From Apophysomyces variabilis (taxonomy: Eukaryota > Mucoromycota > Mucoromycetes > Mucorales > Mucoraceae), in the NCBI GenBank assembly GCA_002749535.1, contig MZZL01000134.1, positions 421,328 through 485,327 of the forward strand: 64,000 nucleotides of DNA, read 5' to 3'. The translations under genes and the position numbers were made by a program. The notes under the pieces were generated by a model. That model saw only the letters and a program-made list of their open reading frames with translations, was not told the origin of the DNA and searched no databases. Positions 9,977 to 48,428 of this stretch are shown piece after piece (position 1 is the first letter of the stretch; each line of letters starts with the position of its first letter).

Positions 9977-10189
9977 TCAATAGTAGGTACGTGCAATTGG
10001 ATAGGTATAGCCTCCGTACATCAACAGCATTTCGGACGTGTCGACATAGACATCTTGATTACCAAAGGAACGACTAGTGATCCAGCTAGCAGATTCACGG
10101 GACCAGAGGACTTCCAGATGTTGTTGTGATTCGTTGTCAAACACGATCCACTGGGATCCAGAAGCGTAAACCCATCGAATAGTAGACAT
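9977..10189 (-). CDS. WWE-like single-domain microprotein, locus 1
   Basis: Intronless 70-aa protein, one of six related loci in the window. It reads as one minimal WWE-type domain: Trp6 in RWVYASGSQW, Trp14, the following FD, then QQHLE with Glu26, the block SRSFGNQDVYVD, and a final IARTYY. The WWE family is named for two Trp and one Glu in this order and often ends in an I-x-R strand. WWE domains in RNF146, Deltex and some PARPs bind ADP-ribose forms; binding here is only inferred. The start ATG is shared in position with the paralogues, and a TATA box lies about 110 bp upstream. Nothing else is encoded: no signal peptide, membrane segment or second domain. Confidence 0.8.
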   Translation of the reverse strand: MSTIRWVYASGSQWIVFDNESQQHLEVLWSRESASWITSRSFGNQDVYVDTSEMLLMYGGYTYPIARTYY

Positions 10190-10298
10190 TGTTCGCTTTG
10201 CTGTTAGAACAGTTTGTTTTTCTTGATCTGTAAGAAGGTTAAAGAAGAGAATCTTTTGTTTTCTGATCTAAAACCCTGAAATAAAAAACTAGCAGGGC

Positions 10299-10308
10299 CT
10301 TTTATATG
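10299..10308 (-). promoter_or_regulatory. TATA box of WWE-like locus 1
   Basis: The minus strand reads CATATAAAAG here, about 110 bp upstream of the ATG at 10189. Comparable boxes occur at similar distance before the other four intact WWE-like genes. Confidence 0.6.
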
Positions 10309-10780
10309 CTATTTATTTTTTATTTAGCGCTTCATCTGTCAGGGTGTTCTAAGCCATGAAGCAAGGACAGATGGCCATGCCATTTCCTCTAAATAACCTA
10401 TATTTGGTATCATGAATAGGAAAAAAAAGCTTTTTTTTTATTCTGGGCTGAGCACGAAGGGTACACAAAGCACAAAAGAGAGGCCGCTTTCTAAGCGGAG
10501 GGTCGCATGATCTAAAACTCTAACCAGCCGTTTCCGCCGCCACGCACAGCACAACGACCCAAAAAACAGGGCCCAACAATATTAGGCTTGCTGGCAGAAA
10601 AAAAAGTTCAGCGTCACCTTACTGTTGTTCACAGGCTGTTATTTTTCGCCATTGACCGGTGTTCATCCCTTAGCCAAATCTAAACTCAGCCCACACTGCA
10701 AAAAAGTGTGGCCCACGCGACTCTCCTAAAAAGCAAAAAAGCCTTTTGTAGGCTAGTATAACAATAAAAAAGTACCTGAC

Positions 10781-11236
10781 ATGACTTCGCATGAGCATGA
10801 TTACGATTTGGTCAATGCCAAAGAGATAACAAAGGACTGGGGCAACGATCCTACCGCGTTCCTTCCTCGTTATTATACAATGTACCATCACCAACAAGAT
10901 CCCATTTACGTCCGCCAGTCGCCCAGCAAAGTCTGTGTTGTGGGATTGCTCCCAAACCATGCCATTCTGAAAGACGCCTCTTCGAAATCGGAAATCAAGG
11001 TCACCCAAAAAGTGACATGCGGAGCCAAAGTGCAACCACACACTGTGATCTGCGAACTAATGGCTGGCGATCAAGTCTATCCGATCAAAGCAGCCATGCA
11101 TGGCAAACTCTTGGAAGTAAACCCACGTATCTCGGAATTACTTTACACGCGACCCCTAGACAACGGATTTATTGCAGTCATTATGTCAAGATGGGAGGAC
11201 CCTGAGACCCAATTGAAAGATTTTGTCAAACAATAA
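10781..11236 (+). CDS. Abitram (Simiate/FAM206) family protein
   Basis: Intronless 151-aa protein. The family blocks are recognisable: FLPRYYTMYH near residue 27, VRQSPSKVCVVGLLPNHAIL, VKVTCGAK-type lipoyl-like strands, AAMHGKLLEVNPRISE (animal form: VRGRLMEVNENIL) and NGFIAVIMSRWEDPE (animal form: EGYIAVVLPKFEE). Animal Abitram is a small actin- and filament-associated protein with a fold related to glycine cleavage H protein, and the molecular role in fungi is unknown to me. The length is slightly below the animal protein. The gene is preceded by a roughly 590-bp intergenic region after WWE-like locus 1 and is convergent with the 2-oxoglutarate dehydrogenase gene 251 bp downstream. Confidence 0.85.
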   Translation: MTSHEHDYDLVNAKEITKDWGNDPTAFLPRYYTMYHHQQDPIYVRQSPSKVCVVGLLPNHAILKDASSKSEIKVTQKVTCGAKVQPHTVICELMAGDQVYPIKAAMHGKLLEVNPRISELLYTRPLDNGFIAVIMSRWEDPETQLKDFVKQ

Positions 11237-11487
11237 GGGTTTATGCCACGACAAACACGAACACAACCACGCACAGACGCGAACAAAAAATCAACCATCT
11301 CCTTATACACCATCAGTTCCCCATCAATGATATAGCTTGTATATCTTTACTGCCCAGGCTGATCACTGCAATAGCACTCTATGTATTGTTTTTGTTTTAA
11401 AATGGTTATATAAATTAAGGATGCATAACAATGTAAAAAAGTTTATTCATGGTTTTTGGCTTGGTTTGTTTTCTTCATTGGTTGTCT

Positions 11488-14400
11488 TTACCAGACGGGG
11501 ATACCAGATTCAATCTCCTTGGGCTTGGTAGGTTCACCCAACAAAGCAGCACTCAAGAAATCGTATTCTTCCAAGAAGTGCTTCTTCTTGTTACCAGTGG
11601 CAACGGATGCAGAAGGCTCACGGCCGGTGTATTTGACGGATTTACCAGCATGATGTGTGGTTTGAGATAATGAGGTCGTGATTCTTGATTGGACGTGTTG
11701 CCATGCACCCATGTTCATTGGCTCTTCTTGACACCAGATCACTTCGGCGTTGGGATATTTATCAGCATGCTCCTTAACTTGCTCGTAAGGGAAGGGGTTC
11801 AATTGTTCCACACGGGAGATGGCAACATTATTGAGCTTGTTCTGCTCACGGGCACGTAACAAAGCATAGTACACCTGGCCTGTGCACAGCACGTGTTTCG
11901 TGATCTTTTCAGCAGACTCCAAGTGTTCGGGATGAGGATCCGGAAGGTACAACTGGAAGTGAGTTTCGCCAGTCATTTCAGCCAAGCTGGATCTGGCCAA
12001 GGGATGACGAAGCATGGCCTTGGAGAAAGGCAAGATCAACTAGAAATAACAAAGACATAGTGAGTAAAACCATGTTGCTCTTTGATGCAAAAAGGTTCTT
12101 CTATGCTTACAGGCTTTCTGAATTCACGGCAGATCTGACGGCGAAGGACGTGGAAGTACTGGGCGGGGGTGGAAGCGTAGACAACCTGCATGTTGCAGTC
12201 CTGGTGCTGACGTGAAAGTTTCTCGGGCGAGGGGTAGATGTATGGGTTGTCATCGCACATCTGCAAGTAACGTTCAATTCTAGCAGAAGAGTGTTCAGGA
12301 CCTTGACCGTCGTAACCATGGGGAAGGGACATCACAAGGCCAGAGCGCTGAAGCCACTTCTGCTCACCGGCAGAAATGAATTGGTCAACAATACATTGGG
12401 CGTTGTTGGCAAAGTCACCGAATTGAGCTTCCCACATCACCAAAGCGTTGGGATCCACAAGGGAGTAACCCAGCTCGAAACCAAGTACACCGAACTCGGA
12501 CAAGGAGGAGTTGGAGATAGACAAAGCACCTTGCTCGGGAGAAATATGGTTCAACAAGGTATATTTGTTGGCATTCTCTTGATCGTGCAAAACAGCATGA
12601 CGCTGAGAGAAGGTACCACGTTCGACATCCTGACCGGAAACGCGTACGTGCTTGCCCTCCAAAAGCAAAGATCCCCAAGCCAAAGCTTCGGCAGTCGACC
12701 AGTCAATGTCCTTGCCTTCCTTCAAGTTCTTCTCGCGGTTGTTGATGATTCTCTTCAAGTTACGGTGAACGTTAAAGTTCTGGGGAAGAGTGGTCAAAGC
12801 CTTGCCAACTTGGTGCAAGGTCTCTTCGGAAACACCAGTGGGGAAGTGATCCAAGACTTCTTCAGCCAATTCCTTAGGCGATTTGAAGCCTGCCAAGCAG
12901 TTAGTTTTTTGTTTTGCGCAATCTTCTTATTTATCTCATTTCACTTACCAGGCCATGAGCTGGACAACCATTCGCGGGAAGTGGGTTTGTAGTCCTTGCT
13001 TCTAGCATAGCTCTCCTCAAGGATTTCCCAGACACGCTTCTTGTTTGCATTGATCTCCTCTTCGGTAAAGGTACCTTCCTTCTTCAACTGTTCGGTGTAC
13101 TTCTCAGCAACAGGCTTTTGCTTGGAGATGGCTTGATACATCTTGGGCTGAGTGAAGCTGGGCTGATCAGTTTCGTTGTGACCATGCTTTCTGTAGCAGA
13201 CAAGGTCAATGACGACGTCTCTGTGGAAGGTCTGACGCCAGTCAGCGGCAAGTTGCATGACATAAGTCACGGCTTCAACATCATCACCATTGACGTGGAA
13301 GACAGGGGCATTAATGGACTTGGCGATATCGGTACAGTAGGGGGTGGAACGGCCATAACGGGGATCGGTGGTGAAACCAATCTGATTGTTCACAACGATG
13401 TGGATGGTACCACCAGTAGAGTAGGCAGGCAAATCATGGAAGCCCATGGTTTCGTACACAACACCTTGTCCAGCAAAGGCAGCATCACCGTGCATCAAGA
13501 CAGCCATGGAGTGCTTGCCCTCAATGTCGTTGCTGTAGTATTGCAAAGCTCTGGTCTTACCAAGAACGACAGGGTCAACGGCTTCCAAGTGAGAGGGATT
13601 GGCGACCAAAGAAAGGTGGACACGTTTACCGGAAGGAGTAGGACGAACATAGTTCATACCGAGATGGTACTTGACGTCACCGGAACCTTCCTCAGAAGGA
13701 GCAAGAGAACCGCTGAATTCGCAGAAAATAGATTCGTTGGGCTTGCGGACAACGTTGCTGAGGACGTTCAAACGACCACGGTGAGGCATACCAATAACGA
13801 TGGACTCGACGCCAAGGTCAACCGAACGGTCAATCTAACCCAACTAGATAAGTTCACAAAACACGACCAAAACCAACACGTTACTCACCATGGCCTTCAT
13901 ACCAGGGATAAGGGATTCACCACCCTCAAGACCGAAACGCTTCTCAGAGGGGTACTTAGATGCAACAAAACGTTCAAAGCTGTCAGACCATGTGAGACGG
14001 TCGAGGATCATACGCTTTTCATCCACAGAAAACTTGTAGGGTTGAGGGTTCTCGATACGCGAACGGATCCAGTCGCACTGTGCACGATCAGGGATGTGAA
14101 TGTACTCAATACCGATGGAACCGCCTAAATAACATCCATTATCAGTAAACTCAATCACCTCCTTTTTTTTGCCTTTCCCAAAAAAGTGGACTTGTCCTAC
14201 TTACAGTAGATTTTCTGCAAGACATCAATGATTTCGCGCAATGTCAATTCCTTGTTAGTCTGACCAAGAGCGGGCAAGATACCGGGACCAAGAGTGAATT
14301 TACGATCAAGGTCTCTTTCAGTAAAACCGTAGAAGGAGTATTGAAGCTCGGGAGGAGAGCTGTGCTTAAGGTCGGCATGCTGAATACCCAAGGGGTCCAA

Positions 14401-14868
14401 ATTGGCGATATGATGACCGCGCACCTGATAGGCTCTCACGAGGAGCTGAATCTTCATATGGTCAATGACTTCCTTGGACGATGCGTTTGCAGGGTCAGTG
14501 ATAGTGGCACCGGGCAAGTCGGGGAGGCGTGCACTTGCGGAGGGGAACAAGGTAGGTGGAGGAGTGTAAGCCTGACTGGGAGGCACGCCGTTGGCCATAT
14601 TCTTAAAGTAGATTTGCCATGACAAATGGACACTGGAGGGTTCTCGCAACCAGGCCTCATACATTTCCTCGATATAATTTGCGGCATTACCTTGCAGAAA
14701 CACGTCATTTGCTTCGGGTGCAGTTTTGGTAGCAGCCAAGCGCGATTTGCCAGTATGGAAAGCACCCACCGAAGCGGGTGTTCGTACAGCCAAAGGTTTG
14801 ACTGTCTGTGGAATATGCCGAGAAACAAGAGGTCGTGCGGCACGAGATAGCGCCGTCAAACGATACAT
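11488..14868 (-). CDS. KGD1: 2-oxoglutarate dehydrogenase E1, mitochondrial
   Basis: Five exons, complement(join(11488..12039, 12111..12889, 12949..13834, 13889..14124, 14205..14868)), total 3117 bp and 1038 aa, the usual size for this enzyme. It is the thiamine-diphosphate-dependent E1 that decarboxylates 2-oxoglutarate and passes the succinyl group to E2 in the TCA cycle. The N-terminus ([17 protein letters not shown]) is Arg/Ser/Ala-rich without acidic residues, like a mitochondrial transit peptide. Family blocks follow in order: [47 protein letters not shown] with VNNQIGFTT (cofactor region), [57 protein letters not shown] and [12 protein letters not shown]. The start at 14868 is preferred over an upstream in-frame codon at 14952 because only the later one begins the transit-like sequence. 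All junctions keep phase. Confidence 0.97.
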
Positions 14869-17800
14869 GGTTTTAATAGAGTGGAGAAGGGAGAAAAGAG
14901 AAGCGAAAAGAGTGGGGTAAACAAGGGAAAACCACACGGGCACACGGTACAATCAAAAACGTCGCTAAATAATAAAAAATTGTTGTGTGGCGGATTATTC
15001 CGATTTCAATCTCCATGAGTCCCCGTTTGCTAGCGAAAGCGGGTAAATGTTTGTTGATATCTACCACTCTAAAACCCATTTCATCTCTTTTCCTCCCCTT
15101 TTCGATGAACATAAAAGCAAAATAAACAGCTTGACAAATCATGTTACCTTGTCTATCATCCTCTTTTCCATGTCTGATATACATACTCGCTGTCTATGAA
15201 AAAGGTTTTCTTATCCCTACTCTAAAGCACCGACCATTTACAACCCCGGCAACTGTAGTCATTCCGTAACTTTCCTTTCGTACCGGACCGTTCCCCCCTT
15301 TTCCGACGCGCCCTATGACGTCGACAAGTTGACCAAAAAAAGATTGCCCCAGCCACTTACGCTTTTAAATCGATCGACAGATCATCAAAGGACCAATTTC
15401 ACCAAAGATATGCCCCATTTAAACCTGTATGCTTTCGATCCTGGCCTCCATCTTTCTTTAGCATGTTGGAGATTTAATGAAATCCCGCATAGACACATCC
15501 TGCGGGAAGAAGCGCTTACCAAATACTGAAACCAGTGCCCCACCAGCGTCTCCCTAATCCGGAAATTCGTCATGTTTTGTATCACAAACTAACAAATGTC
15601 AACGTGGAGGCAATTGTTACTTGCTCTTCTACTTTGGAAATAATCTGGGGGAAAACTCCTACCCAGAGGCAGTAGTTTATTGAAGCAAACGCGGAAACCA
15701 TTACCCGGGAAGCTAGCACCAAACAGAACAACAGTCACCACTTATGGTGATGACCAACTCCAGTTCATTATGACCCTTCACGCATCCAACAATATGAACA
15801 CAAGAAGAACAAAGAATTCATGGGGCGACGATATGACACTCTACTAAACCCCTCTAACACTCAGCCGTTGGACTAAAACAGGAACAAGTTTTGCAGGCGG
15901 AGATTCTTTTTCGCGTTCTGATGCTTCCGAGGAAATCTTGAGAGGACCTGCATATGGTTAGCTCCTCGACCCATCTCTTGCTGACCGTAATCGATTGGCC
16001 AAGTTGCTGATCTTTTAAGCCAATTAGATCTATTTGTTTCGGATAAGCTGGTGCAGTTACACAGCGCGGAAAGAAAAGGTCGCCGATCCATTTTCCCTCT
16101 GTTGCGGTTTTCCAAAGTAGGTTTAAAAAGGATCGCTTGTAGAGTTTCGGTCAGGTTTGCCTTTAAACACGTCCAATATGGTATCCCATTGTTCATGGAA
16201 GCGTTTATTCAATGCATTTGCAAAAAAGTATATCGATGCCAAAACCAGATAGATGCCACAAGACACTTGCATGGTTGTGATAAACGGTGCAAGAAACTGA
16301 TAATGTCTCTACGCGTGATGATAGAGCTAGAACAAAAACTATCCCGTCATTCTCTGAAAAAAAAGTTTGAAGCGGTACAAAAGCCGGGAATAGGATTTTG
16401 ATGGATGAGCTGCCACTATTGATGTGGTGGTGAAGAGCAATTCGGGCAAATGTCCACTTTTTGCCGACCTCGTCATGCTGAAGCGTCAATCAAAAGCACT
16501 TGCTGAAAACAAAGAGTTCATAAAGATCGTCGTCGCTTTTGTGAACAGTTTTCCTACTGAAATGCACTATATCTACCAAATGCTGTCAAATATACTGATG
16601 AGTTGCTAACCATGAAAGCAATGCCAACTCACTTTCTGTTCGTATCCGTTTGAAGCGAACCTGGTGCCAACTGGGTTTCCAATGCTATGCATATTTTTGA
16701 TCGACAATATCGCTAAGTCCGCCGCCAGTACGTTAATCTCTATTATCTGCCTACAAGGCTTGACAGAAGTTGAATAAAGTAATTAGATTTAAACTAACTA
16801 TTCAAGCCTATAGGGGCACTTGATGATATGCCACGTTTCTATTTGCAAATGTAACTGCAGGATCGGCGATCGAGATCTCATATGGAACTTGGATGGCGAG
16901 TGTTAAGGGAGAATTAGTGGACTCCAGATAAAGTTAATGATGTAGGCGCCGACATCCACACCAAAAATTGAGCGGACTGTAAGTTAGTTAATAAGGAGCT
17001 GATTGCGCTAACTGGGAAAAAATCAGCATGGAGCTTTCAACATAACCAACAGACTTTGAACAGATCTTGCATACTACGTGCCTGAAAGCCATAAGCAGCA
17101 AGCAAACAATCTCATAAACAGATTGTGTGAGCAGCTGGCTGTTTTTCTATCAGAAATCAATCAGTTAGAAAATGGATATGATAGGCTTGAACCTCGATAC
17201 GAAGGTAATGTTGATTGAAAGCAGACAGGAGTTTGCGGATCGTGGTGCAAAAGGGGCTTATTATTAGTAAAATTCATTTTAAGCCGGGGCAAAGTACAAA
17301 CCTTAAGTGAGTTTATCTTGAAAAGAAATGGTTTGGCCAAAATAATCTAAGGAGACTTGTTTAGCAGACGTTTGCTTGCTTTAATTCTTTCTGTGGTTGG
17401 AGTTTGGTTTCATTCTATCCAAACCAAAAATAAAGCAAAATCTGTAGAGTACGGCTATCGCCCAAGAACCCTATGTACACAAAAATATGCGAATCCAAGT
17501 GTGTAGCGCAGGTAGCCAATGGAAAGCAATTTAACCGCCGGACTGTCTCGTGCGTTTTGCCTCCAACATCCCTTTTTTCTTATGGGGGGGGGGCGAGTAG
17601 ATTACTCCGTCCATTGACAACAACTTGTTTAAAAGTCATCCTAACAATTAACTCGAATACTAAGTGCGATTATCTCATTGCTTATATGGAACTTATCCCG
17701 CAAATAAGCACTACGAGTTGAACGAAGAAAGTGCCTAAAACCTAGTATTATCTTGTAAGGTTGACTACGGAGAGAAGAGCGTACTCATACTATTTGCTGG

Positions 17801-18340
17801 CGGACCATGTCAGCATTGACAAATAAGCAAATATTAGTTATTGACAAGATCCCGATAAAGTATAAGGCTTATGATAGTCTTCCCTATCCGTTTTCCTCTT
17901 TTTCTTCCCCTTAGCCAACAAAGAAAGCCTATTTTCTTATTTCTTCGTTCTGAAAGAACAATGGATGGTAAATCAGGAGTTAATTTTTTTTTTAGGAAGG
18001 GTGAGCCGATCGGGACAATGCCAAAGAAAGATCGGTAAAGTTTCGTTCTCCTCCTCCTCCTTCCTCCGTCAGAAACTGGTTTGATCAACGATCAGCATTT
18101 TATTGTTATTATTTGAGTTAAACAAACTTTCATTGTCATTGACGTGTAAAAAAAAAAAAAAAAGCTTAAGCGCCTGTCTTTCAACGCATATAAATCAGGA
18201 AGGTGGGGGGAGGGAAGAACAGTAAGCAAAAGCATAGATGCATAAAATCAGAAAGGTATGGATTGACCTACTCTGGAACTATAAACATAAGAAGGGATAA
18301 ATAAATGAAACAATGTGTTGATGATAAATGTTAATTGCTA

Positions 18341-18377
<37 letters not shown>

Positions 18378-18535
18378 TGATGGGTATGATATATGGTATA
18401 TGGGTATATGGGTATATAGTGGTGAAAGAGAGCAAGAAATTTACAAATAAATAAAAACCAGAGAGATTGTGCATGCGTGCGTGCTGATTGCATGGAAATG
18501 TGCGTACAATGAAAATGAGAGGCTGCAATGCAAGT
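14869..18535. other. Gene-poor stretch with possible decayed coding remnants
   Basis: No intact gene is supported. Between about 16,050 and 16,750 on the plus strand there are short coding-like patches (for example the 61-residue frame at 16424-16609, with KCPLFADLVMLKRQ), broken by stops and frame changes, that look like a worn-out gene of unknown family. The remainder is AT-rich. The first 300 bp upstream of the 2-oxoglutarate dehydrogenase ATG probably hold its promoter. Confidence 0.4.
18343..18382. repeat. GATGAC microsatellite
   Basis: About six to seven tandem copies of the hexamer GATGAC, ending in GATGATGATGG, followed by a short GGTATAT-type degenerate repeat to about 18,420. It lies about 155 bp downstream of the stop codon of WWE-like locus 2, in its presumed 3' flank. 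Confidence 0.9.
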
Positions 18536-18745
18536 TTAAGAATAAGTTCGGACGATGCAGTATGCGAAACCGTTGCATATCAATGTCAATTCCGATGTGT
18601 TGACATAGACGTGTCCGTTGCCAAAGGAGCGACTGACAACCCAAGCGGCACCTTCACAGTACCAGAGTTTCTCGATCGTCTGCTGCGTAGCTGGATCTAA
18701 CGCGATCCAACAAGATCCAGAAGCATACAACCATTGTACGTGCAT
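18536..18745 (-). CDS. WWE-like single-domain microprotein, locus 2
   Basis: Intronless 69-aa protein. Trp5 (QWLYASGSCW), Trp13 and Glu25 (TQQTIEKLW) match the WWE triad; the second half has RSFGNGHVYVNTSEL and ends IVRTYS. An in-frame upstream Met (18808) exists, but MHVQWLYASG at 18745 matches the starts of the paralogues and lies downstream of the TATA box, whereas the upstream Met would leave only about 25 bp. It is divergent from locus 3, whose ATG is 1.2 kb away, so the two may share a regulatory region. Confidence 0.8.
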   Translation of the reverse strand: MHVQWLYASGSCWIALDPATQQTIEKLWYCEGAAWVVSRSFGNGHVYVNTSELTLICNGFAYCIVRTYS

Positions 18746-18832
18746 GATTAAGTTAGTAGATAAAAAGGATATTAACTGAAATAAAATAGAAAAGAGAGGA
18801 GAACGCAAGTGTAAAACGTTGGGTTTTTGTGG

Positions 18833-18841
18833 CCTTTATAA
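18833..18841 (-). promoter_or_regulatory. TATA box of WWE-like locus 2
   Basis: The minus strand reads TTATAAAGG, about 90 bp upstream of the ATG at 18745. Confidence 0.55.
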
Positions 18842-19861
18842 CAGCCTCTCTCTTTCTAATTACATTTACGGTAGATTCTTATTTTTACTTTTTTCCTTAT
18901 CCTCGTGCGTATCCTCTCTATATTCATGTAGTAATTCAAACCCCTCGCTTAAAATGATGCCGTCTATGGTTGACAGCCGAAAAAGGGGGGAGTCTCCGTG
19001 GTTTTTTTTTGTGCGTGTGGTTTGAGATCACCGGAAGAAATGGTTAAGGAAAGATAAGAAAAAGGATCTGCGAGATAAGGCAACTTGGTAGCCATGTTTT
19101 CATTATTCCACAAGTTTTTTTTTTCAGTTGCTGGACTGATCCCACTTTAGACTTGCCAAACAACTGCAAACACAAGATCGAGCATCATTTTCATTCTTTG
19201 TTTGGTGTTGTGGAAAGATGCACCAGTTTTCATACGTTAATACATGCTATTCATTGTCTAAACTGAAGGGCTGAACAGGTACATAAACATTAAAACAAAA
19301 AGAGCTGTCAAGTGGTTATAGTTGTAAGATCTGATCACAAATATTCACTCAGACAACAAAAGCAACTAGATCATGTGCCGTTGCAATGGCCTGTTCTCTT
19401 GTAAAATTTCAATGAGAGAATCATGTTTTATGCTAATCCGTTACCTGACTCAATTTTGCCATAACAAAGAATAAAAGATCGAGGATAAATGTAGTCGCAT
19501 CAAGTAGGCAAATTAAAGTTATCTACAATCAAATACGATAACCGTCTTTATTGATTGTGTGTAGAAATGGCATTTACTATGGCAACACAGAAAGGGCTGC
19601 ATACCGAACTTTTTTTAGCTTGTTTTTTTTTGGTGGCACCTATAAACCAGAATTTTCTTAGTGCCATTAGTTATGAGCGGAAGTAAAAAGAGGAAGAAGC
19701 TTATAGTTTATGCTGCGGAACCCGGTATGTTTACGTTCAGTCGCCGGATTGTGATCCTCCATTCCATAACCAAGCGATATCTTCTTTATTCTTCTGATTG
19801 TGATACGATAGCATGTTGACTTGATACATGCTGCTGCAAAAGTGGCACTTCATTTCACCGG

Positions 19862-19870
19862 ATATAAAAG
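19862..19870 (+). promoter_or_regulatory. TATA box of WWE-like locus 3
   Basis: ATATAAAAG about 100 bp upstream of the ATG at 19967, preceded by a C/G-containing stretch (TTTCACCGG). Confidence 0.6.
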
Positions 19871-19966
19871 CAAGTTCACATTATGTGAACTCAGCTATAT
19901 CTCTTAACAAACAAAAAAGAAAGAAAAAGAAAACCGATCACTAACTACGAATCTGACTATCGTATC

Positions 19967-20182
19967 ATGCCTGCCGTTCATTGGTTATACCGCGCTGGTT
20001 CTTGCTGGCTTGCTATCGATCAGGAAACTCAACAAGTCATTGAAAAGTTATGGTTTTCCTCTGACGCCTGCTGGGTTATCAGCAGAACATTTGGAAATCA
20101 GCAAGTCTATGTTGATCCTACTCAAGCCGTCCTCCGACTAGCGAACGGATGCCAGATTCCTATTGTTCGTACCTATCAATAA
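19967..20182 (+). CDS. WWE-like single-domain microprotein, locus 3
   Basis: Intronless 71-aa protein. The WWE-like triad is Trp6 (HWLYRAGSCW), Trp14 and Glu26 (TQQVIEKLW), followed by SRTFGNQQVYVDPTQ and the terminal IVRTYQ. It has Arg in place of the usual small residue after the aromatic pair (LYRAG against LYASG), otherwise it is close to locus 2. The 3' flank is strongly pyrimidine-rich (20,183 to about 20,350). Function is inferred only from the domain resemblance. Confidence 0.8.
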   Translation: MPAVHWLYRAGSCWLAIDQETQQVIEKLWFSSDACWVISRTFGNQQVYVDPTQAVLRLANGCQIPIVRTYQ

Positions 20183-21972: not shown

Positions 21973-22861
<889 letters not shown>

Positions 22862-22862
22862 A

Positions 22863-34821: not shown

Positions 34822-36800
34822 TTATGCAATAGGTATGCCAAGTACGACCATAAGGTTACCAACTAAACGTAAGCTTCCAGTTGTAAGCACTTGAACTTGT
34901 CGTCCCTGCCGATTAGTATAATCTACCAAACATTCTACAGCTTCCTCGGTGCTAGATGTGACGGTAATATTGCTCTCATCAAACGAAGGACGTAGTGTCC
35001 TCCAGCAGTTCACAAGTTTCGTCTGCATCTCCTGAACTTCTTCGTCGGTAAATAATTGGTACATATTATCTATAGATTCACATCCTTATGGATTAAAGAA
35101 CTGCTAGCAGTTTATATTGATGTTTACAACGTACCCAGGCTATAGCCTTTCCGATACGTTGTGTTGTCAGAAAACACTACGTAGTCAAAAGATAATCCGT
35201 TCAAACAGTTTAACAATGTCGGTCCATCTCGGTCGGCCAAGCAATTAAAGATCAGCACTTGTAAAGCTGCCGGATTGACCAGAGTCGAATACCAGTCAGA
35301 GCAAACTTGTAGGCTTTCAATGGTATGAGCGCAATCCATGTATAGCAAAAGTCTTTGGGTGATCCGGTTAGCGTAGGTTGTCTCAGCTATATCGACTGTT
35401 TGTGCACGTCCTGGCCATTGCACGCGACGGAGACCTTCCTTGAAGTTGGCAGGTACCGCATCAGCAAGTTTTATGTCTCGGCATTTCTCCAACCATATCC
35501 TACATAATTCAATAGCCACCAAAGCGTTTTGTTTCTGGTACACACCAGACAAGCCTAGATACTACGTTAACATATATTGATTTTGGCGAGTCTCTTTGAC
35601 TCATAAGCTTTTTCTTACCAATTTCCACATCATCCAACAGATGCGCTTGACTTGTCTCCATAACATGAAGAGTAGCCTGTGAAAATACAGGTGATTTTTC
35701 CAAATCCGGGAATTAACAGGTTAAGTTACCTCTTTTTCTTTTGCTCTCCGTTTGATCACTTCCAAGGCTTTCGGCACTTGCTCAAATGTTACAACAGGGA
35801 CATGATGCTGGAAAACCGCAAAGAAGGAAGCGATTAATTGGGACACAATGAAAGTATTTTCACGGTTAAACTACCTTAATAATGCCCGCTTTGTGCCATG
35901 CAATCTTGTCGACCGTGCTACCCAGTTCGTCCATATGATCAAATCCCACAGCGGCAATACCACATGCGATTGGTTGTGTAACCACATTGGTGGCATCATA
36001 CTCACCGCCAAGGTTTACTTCCAAAACGACCACGTCTACCTGTCATGTAATGATTGAATAGTCTTTTTTTTTTCATATTAGCACTTGTATATTTACCTTC
36101 TCGGAAATAAAACTGTGTAGAGCCATTAAAACAAAAAATTGGCGGTGTGTTAGTTTATCCAGGAGTTCTGGGTGATAGTCAAGGTGAGGTTTGAAAGTTT
36201 GAGTCTAGATTGATTCATTTTAGTTGATTGCACATAAACAAATAGTGAGCTTACTGTTTCATCATGTGCTGATCTGCCAACTTCTTTAGTTTCCTCTAGC
36301 CGCTTCCAAACTTCTTCCGAGTAGAGCGCAAATTTTTCTTCACTTATAGGAATTCCATCGATTCGGATGCGTTCTCGCATTGTCTTAAGATGAGGAGTTG
36401 TAAACAGCCCGGTACGTAGACCTCTTTCTTTTATTGGGTAGTGTTTCAAGATAGCTTGAGATATAGCACAGATAGATCCTTTACCCTTCGTTCCAGTGAC
36501 GTGAATAACCTTCAAGTCGTTAAAATCCTTGTCCTAGGAATGCAAAATGTTTGGTTTCTTTATACGATGACTGCATTGCTTGTCTCTTACATCATAGCCA
36601 ATCCGTTTCATATAGTATCTCATATGTGGGAGATTGTATTCGTCAACCGTCGGATCATTCTTTCGCAACTGATTCAGAAGCAAAAGATTTGACTGCAAGG
36701 CATTCACTTTTTTAACCGCGCTCTATTACATATAACGTATGAACATTAGCTTGAAAAGGAAAAAAGAATGTTGCTGTTCTACTTCGTAGGTGAGCGTCAT
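34822..36800 (-). CDS. Folylpolyglutamate synthase, divergent copy 1
   Basis: Nine exons, complement(join(34822..35069, 35135..35554, 35619..35676, 35730..35807, 35875..36039, 36097..36204, 36255..36533, 36591..36722, 36783..36800)), give 501 aa. FPGS adds glutamates to folates so that they stay in the cell. The Mur-ligase P-loop VTGTKGKGS is intact and the exon structure is the same as in copies 2 and 3, including a first exon of just six codons (MTLTYE). Two family motifs are altered: [13 protein letters not shown] replaces the usual [10 protein letters not shown], and MDCAHTIES replaces LDGAHTLES. The frame is open throughout, so the gene is not an obvious pseudogene, but activity could be changed. 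It is clearly an older duplicate than copies 2 and 3. Confidence 0.88.
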
Positions 36801-39671: not shown

Positions 39672-39681
39672 TATATATAAG
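39672..39681 (+). promoter_or_regulatory. TATA box of WWE-like locus 4
   Basis: TATATATAAG about 100 bp upstream of the ATG at 39774. About 30 bp further upstream is TCCTTGGCA, which also occurs upstream of the TATA box of locus 6. Confidence 0.65.
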
Positions 39682-39773
39682 CGCGTTTAGACGCGTCTAT
39701 CTTGTAGTAACTTCATCAAGTCAGACTATCACACCGTAACCAAATCAAAGAAATCAAATCTGCATAAAAAACA

Positions 39774-39986
39774 ATGGCCGTTCAATGGGTTTACGCCGCT
39801 GGTTCCTGCTGGATCACTTTCGATGCTACCTCGCAAAAAAATATCGAACAACTCTGGTTCCATGGGTCCGATGGTCGATTTGCTAGCCCTTCGTTTGATA
39901 ACCGTGAAGTCTACATCTACCTGTCCGAATTGACTCTGATCTGCGATGACGGGACAACCTATAGCATCATGCGAACCTTTGAATAA
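39774..39986 (+). CDS. WWE-like single-domain microprotein, locus 4
   Basis: Intronless 70-aa protein with the WWE-like triad Trp5 (VQWVYAAGSCW), Trp13 and Glu25 (SQKNIEQLW), then SFDNREVYIYLSELTLICDD and the terminal IMRTFE. It is closest to locus 6 and to the truncated locus 5, which is identical where present. The third aromatic block reads DGRFASPSFDN where others have SRSFGN, so this member has drifted at a conserved Gly. It lies in opposite orientation to the FPGS genes. Confidence 0.8.
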   Translation: MAVQWVYAAGSCWITFDATSQKNIEQLWFHGSDGRFASPSFDNREVYIYLSELTLICDDGTTYSIMRTFE

Positions 39987-41088
39987 TTGCAACAATCAAG
40001 CACTCGGCACAATTCGGTATTGTGTCCGTCTTACGTCGTACAAACTCTTTCCGACTTCTTATTTACTATGATTTTTCTATCTTTCTTTGTATGCCTCCCT
40101 TCGTTCTATTGTTTTTTATGTCCATTTTTAGATATACTTTTTTTCTCGATTTTTCTTCCATGACGTACGTGTATTAATCTGTATATTTTCCTCTAATCCC
40201 GTTTCAATATCTCTCCCTTCCCTTTTTGCTTCTTCCTACATTCCAAATTTCCCATCAGCTGTATGTTCAATCTCTTTGCTATTGTCAGATGAAACTATCG
40301 TTTATTACCAAACAGGACAGTCATGTAAAATAAATATGCATTCTCAAAACTAGTTCTCTGCTTTTTCTATGTCGAATACGCTATTACTCTCTCCCTGTTT
40401 ATTTACCATCGAGAGATTCCATGTACTAGTTTGTAAACATTTTTCAATATCCCTCCCAGGAAATCCATGTAGCAATGCCTTGAATCTCTCTCTTTTTTTG
40501 CACTTCTTCACGCAAGAATGGGAACATGTAATTGGCGTATTTACTGTTTGATTATATACGTTTACCGTTTTCGATCTTTGACATGATTCGCAGCTGCATG
40601 TGACTACGTGCAAACACATCTGTCCGCATATTCACTTTTATAATCATATAACAGGGTGCCTTTCAATACGAATAGAAACAGCGTGTTAACAACATTTAGT
40701 TGTATCTTTGCTTCAAATTTTTAGTGGAGACTGACAATCTCGGCTTGATCCAAGAAAAAGTCCATGCAACAAGACAGCACGAAAAGAGGAGTTTGGGAGT
40801 TGAAAATCACTTATGAAATTAGCCTTTGGTTAAACAATGAACTGCATCTCTCCTAGTTAAACGCACTAGTACTCAAAAAAAATTGTATGACTGCCATCAA
40901 CTATATACCTGTGAATCCAGGGTAGCAAGACGTTCGGTATCTTGAAGCAGGTTATATGTGTTGACAACAGTTTATTTTTTCGGCATAATAGTGGACATTA
41001 AATAGAACAAAATTATTTGCATGCAAAACCAAAGCATAAATAAATAAATGGAGAGTTTTTCCGGAGAAGGGAAAATAAGACTCCTTCA
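39987..41088. other. Intergenic between WWE-like locus 4 and FPGS copy 2
   Basis: The first 250 bp are pyrimidine-rich with GACGTACGTGTAT at about 40,162, a string that recurs in the 3' flank of locus 5. From 40,051 on the sequence is repeated at 44,315. No gene is supported; the short frames at 40,350-40,619 on both strands overlap each other and lack motifs. Confidence 0.5.
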
Positions 41089-43115
41089 CTATTTACAGGG
41101 CATATCAAGGACAGCCATGATGTTGCCAACCATCAACATACTACCTGTACTTAGGACTTGTACTCTCTTATCGGCTTGGTTAGCATGGCTGACTACCCAC
41201 TCCACAGCATCCTCGAGGCTCGGTGTGACATGAATCTTATTAATATCAAAGGAAGGATGCAGCTCCTTCCAGCCCTCAGCCAGCTTGATCTGCGTTTCTT
41301 GGATCTCTTCAGCCGAAGTTGTCTTGTCGGCGTTATCTGGAAATTGTTTTTGTTTAGAGCAAAGCCCGCATAACGAAGATCTCTTTCTTTGGCATTTTAC
41401 CTGAAGCATATCCCTGACGATATGTGACATTACTGGAGAAGATAACGTGATCGAACGACAGTTTGCTTAATGAGCTTAGCAACTTGGCACCGTCTCGTCC
41501 ATGGGTACAATTAAAAATCAGAACGCGTGAGGCAGCCTGATCCACCTGAGTGGAGAACCAGTCAGAGCAGACATCCAAGCTTTCCAGAGTATGAGCTCCG
41601 TCAAGGTACCACGAAAGTTCTTGAGAAACCTTGCCGGCATACTTTGTCTCACTTATGTCAACTTTCTGGCCTCGTCCTGGCCATTGTACGCGTCGGAGTC
41701 CCTCCGTGAACTCGGCAGGCACCGGGTTAGTAGATAGCTTCAGGCCCCGGCATTTTTCCAACCATATCCGACATAATTCAATGGCCACCAAGGCATTGTA
41801 TTTTTGATGGATACCCGCTAAACCTAAACGACCCAAGCAAAAATAAATAAACGCAACTATTTTTCTCGCCAACTTCTTGTTTCTTTTACCAATCTCAATA
41901 TCTTTCAACCGGTCGATGTCACGAGCTTGAATAACTTGAAGAGGGGCCTGCAATGGTGAAACTTTGTGTCAGGGTACATCCATTGCATAGTCTAAACTTA
42001 AAAAGAAATCTTTGTACCTCCTTTTCTTTTGCTCTCTGTTCAATCACCGCCAAAGCTTCGGGCACTTGGTCAAATGTGACAGCGGGGACTCCGTGCTAAG
42101 AATTCATCGTTATTAATTCGCTGCTTGAAAGAAAAACTTAATGATTGCATCATACCTTGATAATACCTGCTTTGTGCCATGCTATCTGATCGATTGTGTT
42201 GCCAAGTACGTTCACATGGTCAAGTCCGAGGGCAGTGATACCGCAAACCACCGGGCGTTCAACTACATTCGTAGAGTCATACTCGCCACCAATACCAACT
42301 TCTAATATGGCCACATCCACCTATCCAACGCGAATGAACATCTATTCCACGGAACAGGAACTCTTACGTTTTCTCGGATGAACGTATGAAGAGCTACCAA
42401 AGTAAGATAACGGAAATAAACGGGTTTATCCGGATGTTCTCTGTTATTCTTCATAGCTGCTCTGAGATCCTAGAACTTTTTAGTTAGTATAGGTACACAA
42501 GCTTTTTTTTCCCCTTGGTAACCCACCATTCCATCTTTAGCAGCCCTCTCCTCCATGGCGGCCAAGGCTTCACTTTTCGTGTCTTCTAAGCGTTGCCAAA
42601 CTTCCTCCGAGTACTTGGCAAATTTTTCTTCGCTTAGTGGCCGGCCATTAATACGAATACGTTCTCTCACAGCTACCAAATGTGGTGATGTGAAGAGACC
42701 GGTGCGGAGCGGCTTATCGCCTGTAGGAAAATGTTCCAGGATAGACTGAGTTATAGCAGAGGTAGATCCTTTGCCTTTCGTCCCAGTAATATGGATAACG
42801 TTCAATCGATCAAATTCCTTGCACTACAGAATCAATAAAACGAAAATAAAGAACATACTTAATATACGACAAGACGCTTTCACGCGTTCTTTTGGCGTTT
42901 AGATACCTCATAACCAATTCTTTTGAAATATTCTCTCATTTCTGGGAGGCTACGCTCATTCATTCTTGGGCCAGCTTTTCGTAACTGGCTGAGAAGGGCC
43001 GCGTTCGACTGCAATGAGTTGATTTTCTCAACGGCTTCCTGCAATGAAGATCGAATAAACAAAAGGAAACGTCCCGGATTCAAGGTGAATGACTTACTTT
43101 GTATGTAATTGTCAT
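41089..43115 (-). CDS. Folylpolyglutamate synthase, copy 2
   Basis: Nine exons, complement(join(41089..41336, 41401..41823, 41890..41947, 42018..42095, 42156..42320, 42368..42469, 42527..42823, 42907..43038, 43098..43115)), give 506 aa, normal for a eukaryotic FPGS. The enzyme ligates glutamate to tetrahydrofolates using ATP. Motifs in order: first exon MTITYK, P-loop [10 protein letters not shown] (residues 61-70), [64 protein letters not shown] and LDGAHTLES. All catalytic-type motifs look intact, unlike copy 1. No transit-like extension is present at this start, although an alternative mitochondrial start upstream cannot be excluded. Confidence 0.93.
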
Positions 43116-43517
43116 TGTCGAGTAAGAACGCGATAATATTCGAAAAGAAAATCTTGAGGAGAGGTGCATCTATTACGCGCTTTGCGCCTAAACTCCCTTT
43201 TCAGATAGACACACACGGACACACATATACAACGCATGACGGAGATGCAAAAAGACAAGATCAGATGGCTTATTGGCCAATCACCGGCCGGGATCTGCAT
43301 TGGGCAAATTGCTATGACCCATGCAGCGACGTAAAACTGTGATGGCTTATGATAAGATCCAATAAGAGTAACATAGAGTATGTTTTCAAACTAAGGAGTA
43401 CTGCGATATCCCTTCTTAGTTTGTTCTCAGAAGCTGCGGTATGAGATCATATACCATTTTTCACTGTAGGGCAACGGAAGAGGTGGAAAAGGAAACCACC
43501 ACCAAAGGAGACACAGA

Positions 43518-43712
43518 ATGACGGACTTTAAATACCCGTACTATCCAATGAAGTCTTATTGCAGGCGTGGCGCTGAGTGTGGCGAGATCGTCTTGGCCGC
43601 TTTCTATTCGCCAATGGTTGTGTTGCCTCCCGTGGCTGTCATCGCTTTCCGAAATAATACAATGGAGAAGACCACCGGGACTTGGCTCTCGGTGATCTGT
43701 CTCATATTGTAG
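43518..43712 (+). CDS. Short Pmp3-like membrane protein (doubtful)
   Basis: A 64-aa frame starting MTDFKYPYYPMKSYCRRGAE. It has one clear hydrophobic span and a LPPVAV motif (VVLPPVAVIAFRN) followed by a second hydrophobic piece (WLSVICLIL) and a stop. Pmp3/UPF0057 proteins are about 55 aa with two spans around L-PP-VAV, but they continue beyond this point with a GYIPG-type segment that is missing here. It could be a truncated member or a chance frame. A second copy is at 47782. Confidence 0.35.
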   Translation: MTDFKYPYYPMKSYCRRGAECGEIVLAAFYSPMVVLPPVAVIAFRNNTMEKTTGTWLSVICLIL

Positions 43713-43779
43713 AAGCACGTCTTCCCTTAAGGTCCTTCTCACATATGATTGGTTCATGGCCTCTTTGTCTTCGTAGTAG

Positions 43780-43780
43780 N
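43780..43780. other. Single-N scaffold join
   Basis: One N separates the end of the first 3.73-kb block from a short segment that begins inside the WWE-like coding sequence. It most likely stands for a gap of unknown size. Confidence 0.85.
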
Positions 43781-43935
43781 CGCAAAAAAATATCGAACAA
43801 CTCTGGTTCCATGGGTCCGATGGTCGATTTGCTAGCCCTTCGTTTGATAACCGTGAAGTCTACATCTACCTGTCCGAATTGACTCTGATCTGCGATGACG
43901 GGACAACCTATAGCATCATGCGAACCTTTGAATAA
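43781..43935 (+). pseudogene. WWE-like locus 5, 5' part lost at a gap
   Basis: The sequence starts mid-gene at the codon for Ser/Gln in SQKNIEQLW and reads to the stop. All 51 residues match locus 4, with constant offset 3949. The first 20 codons are missing because of the N at 43780, so this is an incomplete assembly of a gene and not necessarily a broken gene. Its 3' flank agrees with locus 4 only to about position 43,999 and then diverges, which shows it is not simply a copy of the same contig. Confidence 0.7.
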
Positions 43936-44313
43936 TTGCAACAATCAAGCACTCGGCACAATTCGGTATTGTGTCCGTCTTACGTCGTACAAACTCTTTT
44001 CCGTTCCTTTGTGTAATGTTTTCGCTTCTCACATTCGGTTTTCTCTCGTTTTCTCCCTTTTCTTTGAACATATGCTTGAACTGTTCTGTTGTTGTCTTAT
44101 ATGTATTTATTATGATTTTTTTCTCTCGCTTTTTATATGACGTACGTGTATGATTTTGTCTAGAACAACTTGCTTGTCTTTCAATATCCTCTCCCCTGTT
44201 ATATTCAATTTGTCACCTACCATCCCTCTTCAAACACAATGTGCATCTTTGACCCTTTTTCTCGTTCTGTGATAATACGGATATTTGCAAACAAGGCAAC
44301 TATTATGTATAAT
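43936..44313. other. Private 3' flank of WWE-like locus 5
   Basis: After the shared stretch the sequence differs from the locus 4 flank but keeps landmarks in the same order (TTATGATTTTT, GACGTACGTGTAT, CAATATC-CTCTCCC). It looks like a diverged paralogous 3' UTR. No gene is supported. Confidence 0.6.
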
Positions 44314-44314
44314 N
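44314..44314. other. Single-N scaffold join
   Basis: One N separates the short locus 5 segment from the second 3.73-kb block, which starts at the base equivalent to 40051. Confidence 0.85.
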
Positions 44315-45352
44315 CCGACTTCTTATTTACTATGATTTTTCTATCTTTCTTTGTATGCCTCCCTTCGTTCTATTGTTTTTTATGTCCATTTTTAGATATA
44401 CTTTTTTTCTCGATTTTTCTTCCATGACGTACGTGTATTAATCTGTATATTTTCCTCTAATCCCGTTTCAATATCTCTCCCTTCCCTTTTTGCTTCTTCC
44501 TACATTCCAAATTTCCCATCAGCTGTATGTTCAATCTCTTTGCTATTGTCAGATGAAACTATCGTTTATTACCAAACAGGACAGTCATGTAAAATAAATA
44601 TGCATTCTCAAAACTAGTTCTCTGCTTTTTCTATGTCGAATACGCTATTACTCTCTCCCTGTTTATTTACCATCGAGAGATTCCATGTACTAGTTTGTAA
44701 ACATTTTTCAATATCCCTCCCAGGAAATCCATGTAGCAATGCCTTGAATCTCTCTCTTTTTTTGCACTTCTTCACGCAAGAATGGGAACATGTAATTGGC
44801 GTATTTACTGTTTGATTATATACGTTTACCGTTTTCGATCTTTGACATGATTCGCAGCTGCATGTGACTACGTGCAAACACATCTGTCCGCATATTCACT
44901 TTTATAATCATATAACAGGGTGCCTTTCAATACGAATAGAAACAGCGTGTTAACAACATTTAGTTGTATCTTTGCTTCAAATTTTTAGTGGAGACTGACA
45001 ATCTCGGCTTGATCCAAGAAAAAGTCCATGCAACAAGACAGCACGAAAAGAGGAGTTTGGGAGTTGAAAATCACTTATGAAATTAGCCTTTGGTTAAACA
45101 ATGAACTGCATCTCTCCTAGTTAAACGCACTAGTACTCAAAAAAAATTGTATGACTGCCATCAACTATATACCTGTGAATCCAGGGTAGCAAGACGTTCG
45201 GTATCTTGAAGCAGGTTATATGTGTTGACAACAGTTTATTTTTTCGGCATAATAGTGGACATTAAATAGAACAAAATTATTTGCATGCAAAACCAAAGCA
45301 TAAATAAATAAATGGAGAGTTTTTCCGGAGAAGGGAAAATAAGACTCCTTCA

Positions 45353-47379
45353 CTATTTACAGGGCATATCAAGGACAGCCATGATGTTGCCAACCATCAA
45401 CATACTACCTGTACTTAGGACTTGTACTCTCTTATCGGCTTGGTTAGCATGGCTGACTACCCACTCCACAGCATCCTCGAGGCTCGGTGTGACATGAATC
45501 TTATTAATATCAAAGGAAGGATGCAGCTCCTTCCAGCCCTCAGCCAGCTTGATCTGCGTTTCTTGGATCTCTTCAGCCGAAGTTGTCTTGTCGGCGTTAT
45601 CTGGAAATTGTTTTTGTTTAGAGCAAAGCCCGCATAACGAAGATCTCTTTCTTTGGCATTTTACCTGAAGCATATCCCTGACGATATGTGACATTACTGG
45701 AGAAGATAACGTGATCGAACGACAGTTTGCTTAATGAGCTTAGCAACTTGGCACCGTCTCGTCCATGGGTACAATTAAAAATCAGAACGCGTGAGGCAGC
45801 CTGATCCACCTGAGTGGAGAACCAGTCAGAGCAGACATCCAAGCTTTCCAGAGTATGAGCTCCGTCAAGGTACCACGAAAGTTCTTGAGAAACCTTGCCG
45901 GCATACTTTGTCTCACTTATGTCAACTTTCTGGCCTCGTCCTGGCCATTGTACGCGTCGGAGTCCCTCCGTGAACTCGGCAGGCACCGGGTTAGTAGATA
46001 GCTTCAGGCCCCGGCATTTTTCCAACCATATCCGACATAATTCAATGGCCACCAAGGCATTGTATTTTTGATGGATACCCGCTAAACCTAAACGACCCAA
46101 GCAAAAATAAATAAACGCAACTATTTTTCTCGCCAACTTCTTGTTTCTTTTACCAATCTCAATATCTTTCAACCGGTCGATGTCACGAGCTTGAATAACT
46201 TGAAGAGGGGCCTGCAATGGTGAAACTTTGTGTCAGGGTACATCCATTGCATAGTCTAAACTTAAAAAGAAATCTTTGTACCTCCTTTTCTTTTGCTCTC
46301 TGTTCAATCACCGCCAAAGCTTCGGGCACTTGGTCAAATGTGACAGCGGGGACTCCGTGCTAAGAATTCATCGTTATTAATTCGCTGCTTGAAAGAAAAA
46401 CTTAATGATTGCATCATACCTTGATAATACCTGCTTTGTGCCATGCTATCTGATCGATTGTGTTGCCAAGTACGTTCACATGGTCAAGTCCGAGGGCAGT
46501 GATACCGCAAACCACCGGGCGTTCAACTACATTCGTAGAGTCATACTCGCCACCAATACCAACTTCTAATATGGCCACATCCACCTATCCAACGCGAATG
46601 AACATCTATTCCACGGAACAGGAACTCTTACGTTTTCTCGGATGAACGTATGAAGAGCTACCAAAGTAAGATAACGGAAATAAACGGGTTTATCCGGATG
46701 TTCTCTGTTATTCTTCATAGCTGCTCTGAGATCCTAGAACTTTTTAGTTAGTATAGGTACACAAGCTTTTTTTTCCCCTTGGTAACCCACCATTCCATCT
46801 TTAGCAGCCCTCTCCTCCATGGCGGCCAAGGCTTCACTTTTCGTGTCTTCTAAGCGTTGCCAAACTTCCTCCGAGTACTTGGCAAATTTTTCTTCGCTTA
46901 GTGGCCGGCCATTAATACGAATACGTTCTCTCACAGCTACCAAATGTGGTGATGTGAAGAGACCGGTGCGGAGCGGCTTATCGCCTGTAGGAAAATGTTC
47001 CAGGATAGACTGAGTTATAGCAGAGGTAGATCCTTTGCCTTTCGTCCCAGTAATATGGATAACGTTCAATCGATCAAATTCCTTGCACTACAGAATCAAT
47101 AAAACGAAAATAAAGAACATACTTAATATACGACAAGACGCTTTCACGCGTTCTTTTGGCGTTTAGATACCTCATAACCAATTCTTTTGAAATATTCTCT
47201 CATTTCTGGGAGGCTACGCTCATTCATTCTTGGGCCAGCTTTTCGTAACTGGCTGAGAAGGGCCGCGTTCGACTGCAATGAGTTGATTTTCTCAACGGCT
47301 TCCTGCAATGAAGATCGAATAAACAAAAGGAAACGTCCCGGATTCAAGGTGAATGACTTACTTTGTATGTAATTGTCAT
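45353..47379 (-). CDS. Folylpolyglutamate synthase, copy 3 (same as copy 2)
   Basis: Nine exons, complement(join(45353..45600, 45665..46087, 46154..46211, 46282..46359, 46420..46584, 46632..46733, 46791..47087, 47171..47302, 47362..47379)), encode the same 506 aa as copy 2, introns included. With intact P-loop, GIGG and DGAHT motifs, it should be active if it exists as a separate locus. Complete identity in introns suggests either an extremely recent event or an assembly duplicate, so it may not be a third gene. Confidence 0.85.
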
Positions 47380-47781
47380 TGTCGAGTAAGAACGCGATAA
47401 TATTCGAAAAGAAAATCTTGAGGAGAGGTGCATCTATTACGCGCTTTGCGCCTAAACTCCCTTTTCAGATAGACACACACGGACACACATATACAACGCA
47501 TGACGGAGATGCAAAAAGACAAGATCAGATGGCTTATTGGCCAATCACCGGCCGGGATCTGCATTGGGCAAATTGCTATGACCCATGCAGCGACGTAAAA
47601 CTGTGATGGCTTATGATAAGATCCAATAAGAGTAACATAGAGTATGTTTTCAAACTAAGGAGTACTGCGATATCCCTTCTTAGTTTGTTCTCAGAAGCTG
47701 CGGTATGAGATCATATACCATTTTTCACTGTAGGGCAACGGAAGAGGTGGAAAAGGAAACCACCACCAAAGGAGACACAGA

Positions 47782-47976
47782 ATGACGGACTTTAAATACC
47801 CGTACTATCCAATGAAGTCTTATTGCAGGCGTGGCGCTGAGTGTGGCGAGATCGTCTTGGCCGCTTTCTATTCGCCAATGGTTGTGTTGCCTCCCGTGGC
47901 TGTCATCGCTTTCCGAAATAATACAATGGAGAAGACCACCGGGACTTGGCTCTCGGTGATCTGTCTCATATTGTAG
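47782..47976 (+). CDS. Short Pmp3-like membrane protein, second copy (doubtful)
   Basis: Repeat of the 64-aa frame at 43518, with the same hydrophobic span and LPPVAV motif. The same doubts apply: the C-terminal half of a normal Pmp3 protein is missing. Confidence 0.33.
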   Translation: MTDFKYPYYPMKSYCRRGAECGEIVLAAFYSPMVVLPPVAVIAFRNNTMEKTTGTWLSVICLIL

Positions 47977-48097
47977 AAGCACGTCTTCCCTTAAGGTCCT
48001 TCTCACATATGATTGGTTCATGGCCTCTTTGTCTTCGTAGTAGACATGGTAAACTAGAAAGCGTTTTGCTTCCTTGGCATTACAACGAAATACATTG

Positions 48098-48105
48098 TAT
48101 ATAAG
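48098..48105 (+). promoter_or_regulatory. TATA box of WWE-like locus 6
   Basis: TATATAAG about 115 bp upstream of the ATG at 48216. A TCCTTGGCA string lies about 30 bp further upstream, as at locus 4. Confidence 0.6.
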
Positions 48106-48215
48106 CACCCGGAAATTGAAATCGATGTCGAGTCAAACCAAGCAAACTCACTATGCAACCAAGAAAAACCGTTCATTGCTCAATGCAGAAATTGCCCAAG
48201 ACGATGTTCCACACT

Positions 48216-48428
48216 ATGTCGGTTCAATGGTACTATTCTGCCGGTTCCAACTGGATTCCTTTTGACAAGACGTCACAAGAAAACATCGAACAGCTCTGGT
48301 TCAATGGATCTGATGGGTGGATCTTTAGCCCTTGTTTTGGTAACACTGAAGTTTTCATTGATACATCTGAACTTGTGGTGACCCGTCGTGACGGATCGGC
48401 GCACAGCATCATGCGAACCTTCAGATAA
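48216..48428 (+). CDS. WWE-like single-domain microprotein, locus 6
   Basis: Intronless 70-aa protein starting MSVQWYYSAGSNWIPFD. This member is the closest to canonical WWE sequences (RNF146 has WYYEGRNGWWQYD): Trp5, Tyr-Tyr, Trp13, Phe-Asp, then Glu25 in SQENIEQLW, the strand TEVFIDTSEL, and the terminal IMRTFR. An in-frame Met at 48153 would add 21 residues with no counterpart in the other members, so the later start is chosen. It borders the second 3.73-kb block. Confidence 0.8.
   Translation: MSVQWYYSAGSNWIPFDKTSQENIEQLWFNGSDGWIFSPCFGNTEVFIDTSELVVTRRDGSAHSIMRTFR

Follow-up and report, generated by a model that had tools for sequence, protein, structure and literature searches.

Stand-alone genes for predicted WWE-fold proteins with an altered ADP-ribose pocket in Apophysomyces variabilis

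Can a WWE domain live as a protein of its own, and what would such a protein do? WWE domains usually occur inside larger proteins: ubiquitin ligases, PARPs, lipases and lipid-transfer proteins. The question is raised by short open reading frames (ORFs) in a stretch of 64,000 nucleotides from Apophysomyces variabilis (contig MZZL01000134.1, positions 421,328 to 485,327), which we call the window and use as the reference for all positions given with no contig name. An earlier note on this DNA, made from the sequence alone, had described six loci encoding minimal, expanded single-domain WWE proteins and had proposed them as possible free readers or inhibitors of ADP-ribose signals. We find that profile, fold and gene anatomy agree on minimal single-domain WWE proteins that have expanded, and we hold the predicted WWE fold and the stand-alone nature of the genes, taken jointly, to be close to certain.

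A family of short WWE-like genes

Five complete ORFs of 69-71 amino acids, p1, p2, p3, p4 and p6, lie in the window, where genes were delimited by ORF only. They are given below with their scores against the Pfam WWE family (PF02825), which has a curated cut-off of 21.1 bits.

9977..10189, minus strand: predicted solo WWE gene p1, 70 amino acids; 18.7 bits, E 0.0023, below the cut-off
18536..18745, minus strand: predicted solo WWE gene p2, 69 amino acids from the ATG at 18745; 15.1 bits, E 0.031, below the cut-off
19967..20182, plus strand: predicted solo WWE gene p3, 71 amino acids; 15.9 bits, E 0.017, below the cut-off
39774..39986, plus strand: predicted solo WWE gene p4, 70 amino acids; 19.4 bits, E 0.0014, below the cut-off
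48216..48428, plus strand: predicted solo WWE gene p6, 70 amino acids; 25.4 bits, over the cut-off

An in-frame ATG upstream of p6, at 48153, would give a protein of 91 amino acids if used. When the window was searched with tblastn, every pairing of the five proteins gave a match at E 3e-14 or below (best, 2e-26). Protein identity among these true paralogues is 38-64%, p4 and p6 being mutual closest relatives at 64% identity and p2 and p3 being divergent neighbours with 1.2 kb between them. The motif put forward earlier recurs in all five complete copies: a W with a Y at the second position after it, then GS, W, D, Gln, [IL]-E, V-[YF]-[VI] and, at the end, I-x-R-T-[YF]. The one correction is that the residue given there as Tyr or Arg is Tyr in all five.

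The remaining locus of the six lies in a block that repeats its left-hand neighbour.

43780..48043, no strand: apparent scaffold-overlap duplicate, with a single N at each of 43780 and 44314, a 314-nucleotide insert at 44000-44313 and a partial copy of p4 that begins at 43781 and has its stop at 43935

Positions 43781-43999 are 100% identical to 39832-40050 (219 nucleotides), as are 44315-48043 to 40051-43779 (3729 nucleotides). Because of this base-for-base identity and the single-N joints, set against the far lower protein identity of the true paralogues, the 43781 copy looks like a scaffolding duplicate, as from overlapping contigs placed side by side. The insert resembles the 3' flank of the p4 gene (73% over 86 nucleotides), so that a different allele, or a copy of very recent origin, is also possible. 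As an independent sixth member of the family, the 43781 copy was rejected, which leaves five distinct loci in the window and, genome-wide, seven.

The genome searched comprises 38.7 Mb in 126 contigs. With p3 as the query, it was matched in eight places: the five loci of the window, the artefact copy, and two further copies, one on contig C95 and one on C83. The C83 copy, used as the query in its turn, matched seven, all of these but the artefact. The C95 and C83 copies encode 68 amino acids each and are 66% identical to each other; both have an ATG four residues ahead of the first W and a stop three residues past the conserved Arg. There are, then, at least seven solo copies across three contigs. 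In the ~8 kb around each of the two dispersed copies (~4-kb flanks), no gene or ORF other than the WWE gene is held in common with the window.

Protein searches A1, A4 and A6 gave matches for two of seven, two of three and two of two candidates, respectively, the A6 pair being the A1 pair. They yielded four distinct proteins (P0007, P0008, P0009 and P0010), all from Apophysomyces, and the last three of these records are marked partial. P0007 is a hypothetical protein of 70 amino acids from A. ossiformis that is 97% identical to p1 and orthologue-like to it, and P0009 is orthologue-like to the C83 copy. The family is not confined to this scaffold, a worry raised in the earlier note, as copies stand on other contigs and homologues occur in other species. 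The protein searches found no homologue outside Apophysomyces; they needed shared five-residue words and small ORFs often go unannotated, so absence elsewhere is not established.

Predicted fold and gene anatomy

WWE was the top Pfam family in all nine sequences scanned, and the equivalents of RNF146 W105, W113 and E125 are W, W and E in each of the nine. The AlphaFold2 model of p6 has a predicted local distance difference test score (pLDDT) of 95.1, shows the order beta-beta-helix-beta-beta-beta-beta and fits solved WWE domains to 1.3-2.0 Angstrom over 64-67 residues. Solved WWE domains were the best matches of two AlphaFold2 models with pLDDT 95, by a wide margin over the next fold, and the first 19 PDB entries listed for the models are all WWE and stand clearly above the rows that follow. 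A PDB search with p4 as a single sequence gave antibody chains only, at E 0.56-0.66, which we regard as noise; in a viral fold library, WWE-named proteins ranked top at E 0.002-0.004, none reaching E<=0.001. The solo proteins are thus predicted by modelling to adopt the WWE fold, a helix packed on a curved beta sheet, and the fear that they would find no WWE match or take on another fold was not borne out. They resemble the WWE domains of PF02825 (RNF146, HUWE1, TRIP12, Deltex, PARP11/13/14) in the W, W and E positions, the order of elements in the model, the length and the terminal I/V/L-x-R, but differ in that the whole protein is one domain and in the pocket (see below). Unlike the WWE-containing ligases, PARPs and DDHD lipases, the solo ORFs have no catalytic domain.

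Start and stop lie at the domain edges in all seven genomic copies. Further, a TATAWA motif is found 67-118 nucleotides upstream of the ATG in seven of seven; the stricter TATAWAWR occurs in five of seven, compared with a background of 1.6-1.8% of window positions having it at -130 to -75. The boxes in the window, each recognized by consensus match only, are as follows.

10299..10306, minus strand: TATA-like box of p1, TATAAAAG, 117 nucleotides upstream of the ATG
18833..18840, minus strand: TATA-like box of p2, TATAAAGG, 95 nucleotides upstream of the ATG
19863..19870, plus strand: TATA-like box of p3, TATAAAAG, 104 nucleotides upstream of the ATG
39672..39681, plus strand: TATA-like box of p4, TATATATAAG, 102-100 nucleotides upstream of the ATG
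48098..48105, plus strand: TATA-like box of p6, TATATAAG, 118 nucleotides upstream of the ATG at 48216

To judge from these motifs, the solo genes are probably each driven by a TATA-type promoter of their own. Non-synonymous change is lower than synonymous change in 21 of 21 pairs, with pS at 0.61-0.99, which indicates old copies under constraint at the protein level. Together, the domain-edge starts and stops, the TATA-like boxes and this constraint point to single-domain genes.

The ADP-ribose pocket

To compare the pocket, nine sequences were aligned with RNF146, its reference sequence having been confirmed against PDB: the seven genomic copies, P0007 and P0009, the last two not being independent (P0008 and P0010 were left out, the region being missing from them). 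In RNF146, according to the available part of PMC8853533, Q153 and Y107 contact the adenine and R163 and Y144 the phosphate; the portion of PMC11088682 at hand names Y107, Y144, Q153 and R163 as crucial for recognition, and in that of PMC11269756, Gln, Tyr and Arg contacts are described as conserved among the WWE-ligand structures compared. At the position equivalent to Q153, none of the nine sequences has Gln, even when one residue of slip is allowed, and none has Arg at the R163 equivalent (Tyr in four, Met in two, and Ile, His and Val in one each). The Y107 equivalent is Tyr in nine of nine. The Y144 equivalent, placed by anchor, is Tyr in eight and Phe in one; the MAFFT column is shifted by one residue and shows Val or Ala there. 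The end points of the structure alignments (p6 70 with RNF146 170, P0009 67 with 169) agree with this register, provided that there is no gap near the end. Other residues invariant across a set of nine sequences are G10, D17, Q21, W28 and F41.

In this alignment, the classical WWE pocket has lost its polar half, with the adenine and phosphate contacts, and has kept its aromatic lining. Because the polar pair is missing, the solo proteins do not appear equipped like known readers, and we consider it probable, from the residues present, that they do not bind ADP-ribose in the classical way. The proposal of free readers or inhibitors of ADP-ribose signals, checked by alignment and by anchors, is accordingly not supported. 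Nor does the final I-x-R, which had been cited as a feature shared with known WWE domains, speak for it, as this aligns with RNF146 I165-x-R167 and not with R163. A similar state is seen in the WWE domain of PARP14 (1x4r), which sits within a large PARP: it likewise has neither a Gln153 nor an Arg163 equivalent and keeps Tyr107 and the last Arg, but differs from the solo proteins in having a residue other than Trp aligned at the second W position.

Possible roles of free WWE domains and neighbouring loci

The explanation that we prefer is that the solo genes are a lineage-specific family, each member making a free WWE-fold protein of 68-71 amino acids whose re-shaped pocket would serve in an intracellular protein-interaction module. 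Such proteins would work in trans, either serving the WWE domains of larger proteins as adaptors or competing with them, and would not be ADP-ribose readers. We regard free interaction modules or competitors with a re-shaped pocket as the best explanation overall, with the chances evenly poised, and an adaptor or competitor role as a shade less assured than that. The candidate larger partners in the genome would be a WWE ORF on C83 and a WWE-like segment near a DDHD lipase gene on contig C108.

C83:615500-624500, minus strand, at 4296-5210 of the reverse strand: WWE ORF of 290 amino acids; Pfam WWE E 2.1e-7 in one stretch, with no other Pfam domain over the cut-off

Both share the W-[IL]-P-[FC] motif with the solo proteins, and the C83 ORF also shares the following D and S-Q-x-x-L-E; they differ in being larger and in the weakness of the profile similarity. 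Beyond the one stretch seen by Pfam, our own reading is that a second WWE domain is likely in the C83 ORF, which is a further candidate for a WWE-only protein in this genome. A separate WWE match at C84:547314-547547 (minus strand; 24.2 bits, over the cut-off) has two internal stops, perhaps owing to an intron, and its contig has no DDHD match. The ability of WWE domains to bind varies, and PARP13 WWE1 seems to lack ADP-ribose binding, as far as the part of PMC10789625 available to us goes; as we interpret them, the observations there would support partner binding by WWE domains generally and not by the solo family in particular. A tentative and somewhat doubtful extension is to see the genes as a genus-restricted, duplicated set of free WWE domains with a re-shaped pocket whose targets in trans are larger WWE proteins, the WWE equivalent of microProteins, which are small competitors with a single domain; if true, the WWE fold would be able to exist on its own and to do without ADP-ribose recognition.

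Several points weigh against the explanation that we prefer. First, the profile evidence is uneven: p6 alone passes the Pfam cut-off, with the other eight of nine sequences at 15.1-19.4 bits, and a Pfam WWE search of the genome at E<=1 listed p6, p4, p1 and the C83 copy, that is, four of the seven solo copies, p2, p3 and the C95 copy being joined to the family by their similarity to other copies. Second, only weak profile links (in a small set, E 2.4e-4 at best) join the solo proteins to the other WWE proteins of the genome, and the C108 segment, ~1.7 kb upstream of the DDHD lipase gene, scores 20.1 bits, below the cut-off. Third, WWE domains that lack the pocket residues might still bind nucleotides weakly, and ADP-ribose signalling may exist in this genome, which has a PARP, a macrodomain and an ADP-ribosylglycohydrolase. 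There is one PARP locus on contig C11 (405500-414500, minus strand), in which the ankyrin-like and WGR-like upstream exons, unlike the PARP domain, were judged by eye; one macrodomain match, one ADP-ribosylglycohydrolase locus and five DDHD loci were also found. The C11 PARP resembles the ankyrin-type Clade 1 PARPs in the part of PMC4245714 that we could consult. Clade 1 PARPs are given for two of three Mucorales genomes in the accessible text of PMC2964712, and according to the same part of PMC4245714, Mucor circinelloides and Rhizopus delemar have no obvious PARG. Our own PARG search of the genome gave no match, but its control matched nowhere either, and we draw no conclusion from it.

Among the alternatives, a pocket re-purposed for another small ligand (a different nucleotide, the head group of a lipid or the end of a peptide), on which the aromatics would stack so that the protein is a small-molecule sensor, survives best and is still unlikely. 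The Y107- and Y144-equivalent aromatics are selectively kept where the polar pair is lost, and of the invariant residues, Q21 has a counterpart in the C83 WWE ORF; the retained residues may, however, be purely structural, and neither a ligand nor a co-conserved enzyme gene was found, the ~4-kb flanks of the dispersed copies sharing no other gene with the window. Less likely again is the proposal of a free reader or inhibitor that blocks the recruitment of ligases by capping or shielding poly- or mono-ADP-ribose. It draws on the predicted WWE fold, on the adenine-stacking Tyr and the aromatic at the phosphate Tyr, and on the PARP, macrodomain and ADP-ribosylglycohydrolase genes, but the absence of both polar equivalents from all nine sequences contrasts with the Gln, Tyr and Arg contacts shared by the PMC11269756 complexes. 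Further, PARP14 WWE did not bind an iso-ADP-ribose tracer in the portion of PMC10877565 at hand, a weak argument since PARP11, HUWE1, TiPARP and DTX2 failed too. A reading of the ORFs as exons, or as decayed fragments, of some larger WWE protein, which their recognition by ORF only and the open in-frame stretch upstream of p6 might allow, is very improbable given seven copies on three contigs with identical domain edges, a TATA-like box upstream of each, flanks of the dispersed copies with no other ORF in common with the window, protein-level constraint in all 21 pairs and an annotated 70-amino-acid protein in A. ossiformis.

By keeping the fold and losing the main polar ADP-ribose contacts, the solo family offers a small system for asking what a non-reader WWE domain does, a question that also applies to embedded domains that seem not to bind, such as PARP13 WWE1, to judge from the available part of PMC10789625. 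The earlier note had expected a solo, multiplied form to be new, and our searches of the open-licence literature turned up no multiplied, stand-alone, pocket-altered form in a fungus. A WWE-only protein is, however, not without precedent, as small WWE-named proteins occur in giant viruses (e.g. 101 amino acids in Aureococcus anophagefferens virus). These are alike in their small size, 100-135 amino acids, and in the fold match already described, and differ in being viral, longer and 10-18% identical over the alignment; they are known from names and fold matches only.

The window also holds two folylpolyglutamate synthase genes, one with p4 on its right and the other with p6.

34825-36722 and 41092-43200, minus strand: tandem pair of folylpolyglutamate synthase (FolC-like) genes, 42-74% identical in aligned minus-strand pieces

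Given this arrangement and the closest kinship of p4 and p6, the two may have arisen with the folylpolyglutamate synthase genes, as a two-gene block duplicated once. Between p1 and p2, at 12039-14952 on the minus strand, is a gene for 2-oxoglutarate dehydrogenase E1, split into pieces (Pfam 2-oxogl_dehyd_N, E1_dh and Transket_pyr), and at 1694-4312 on the plus strand, ankyrin repeats are followed by a DIL domain, probably in one spliced gene.
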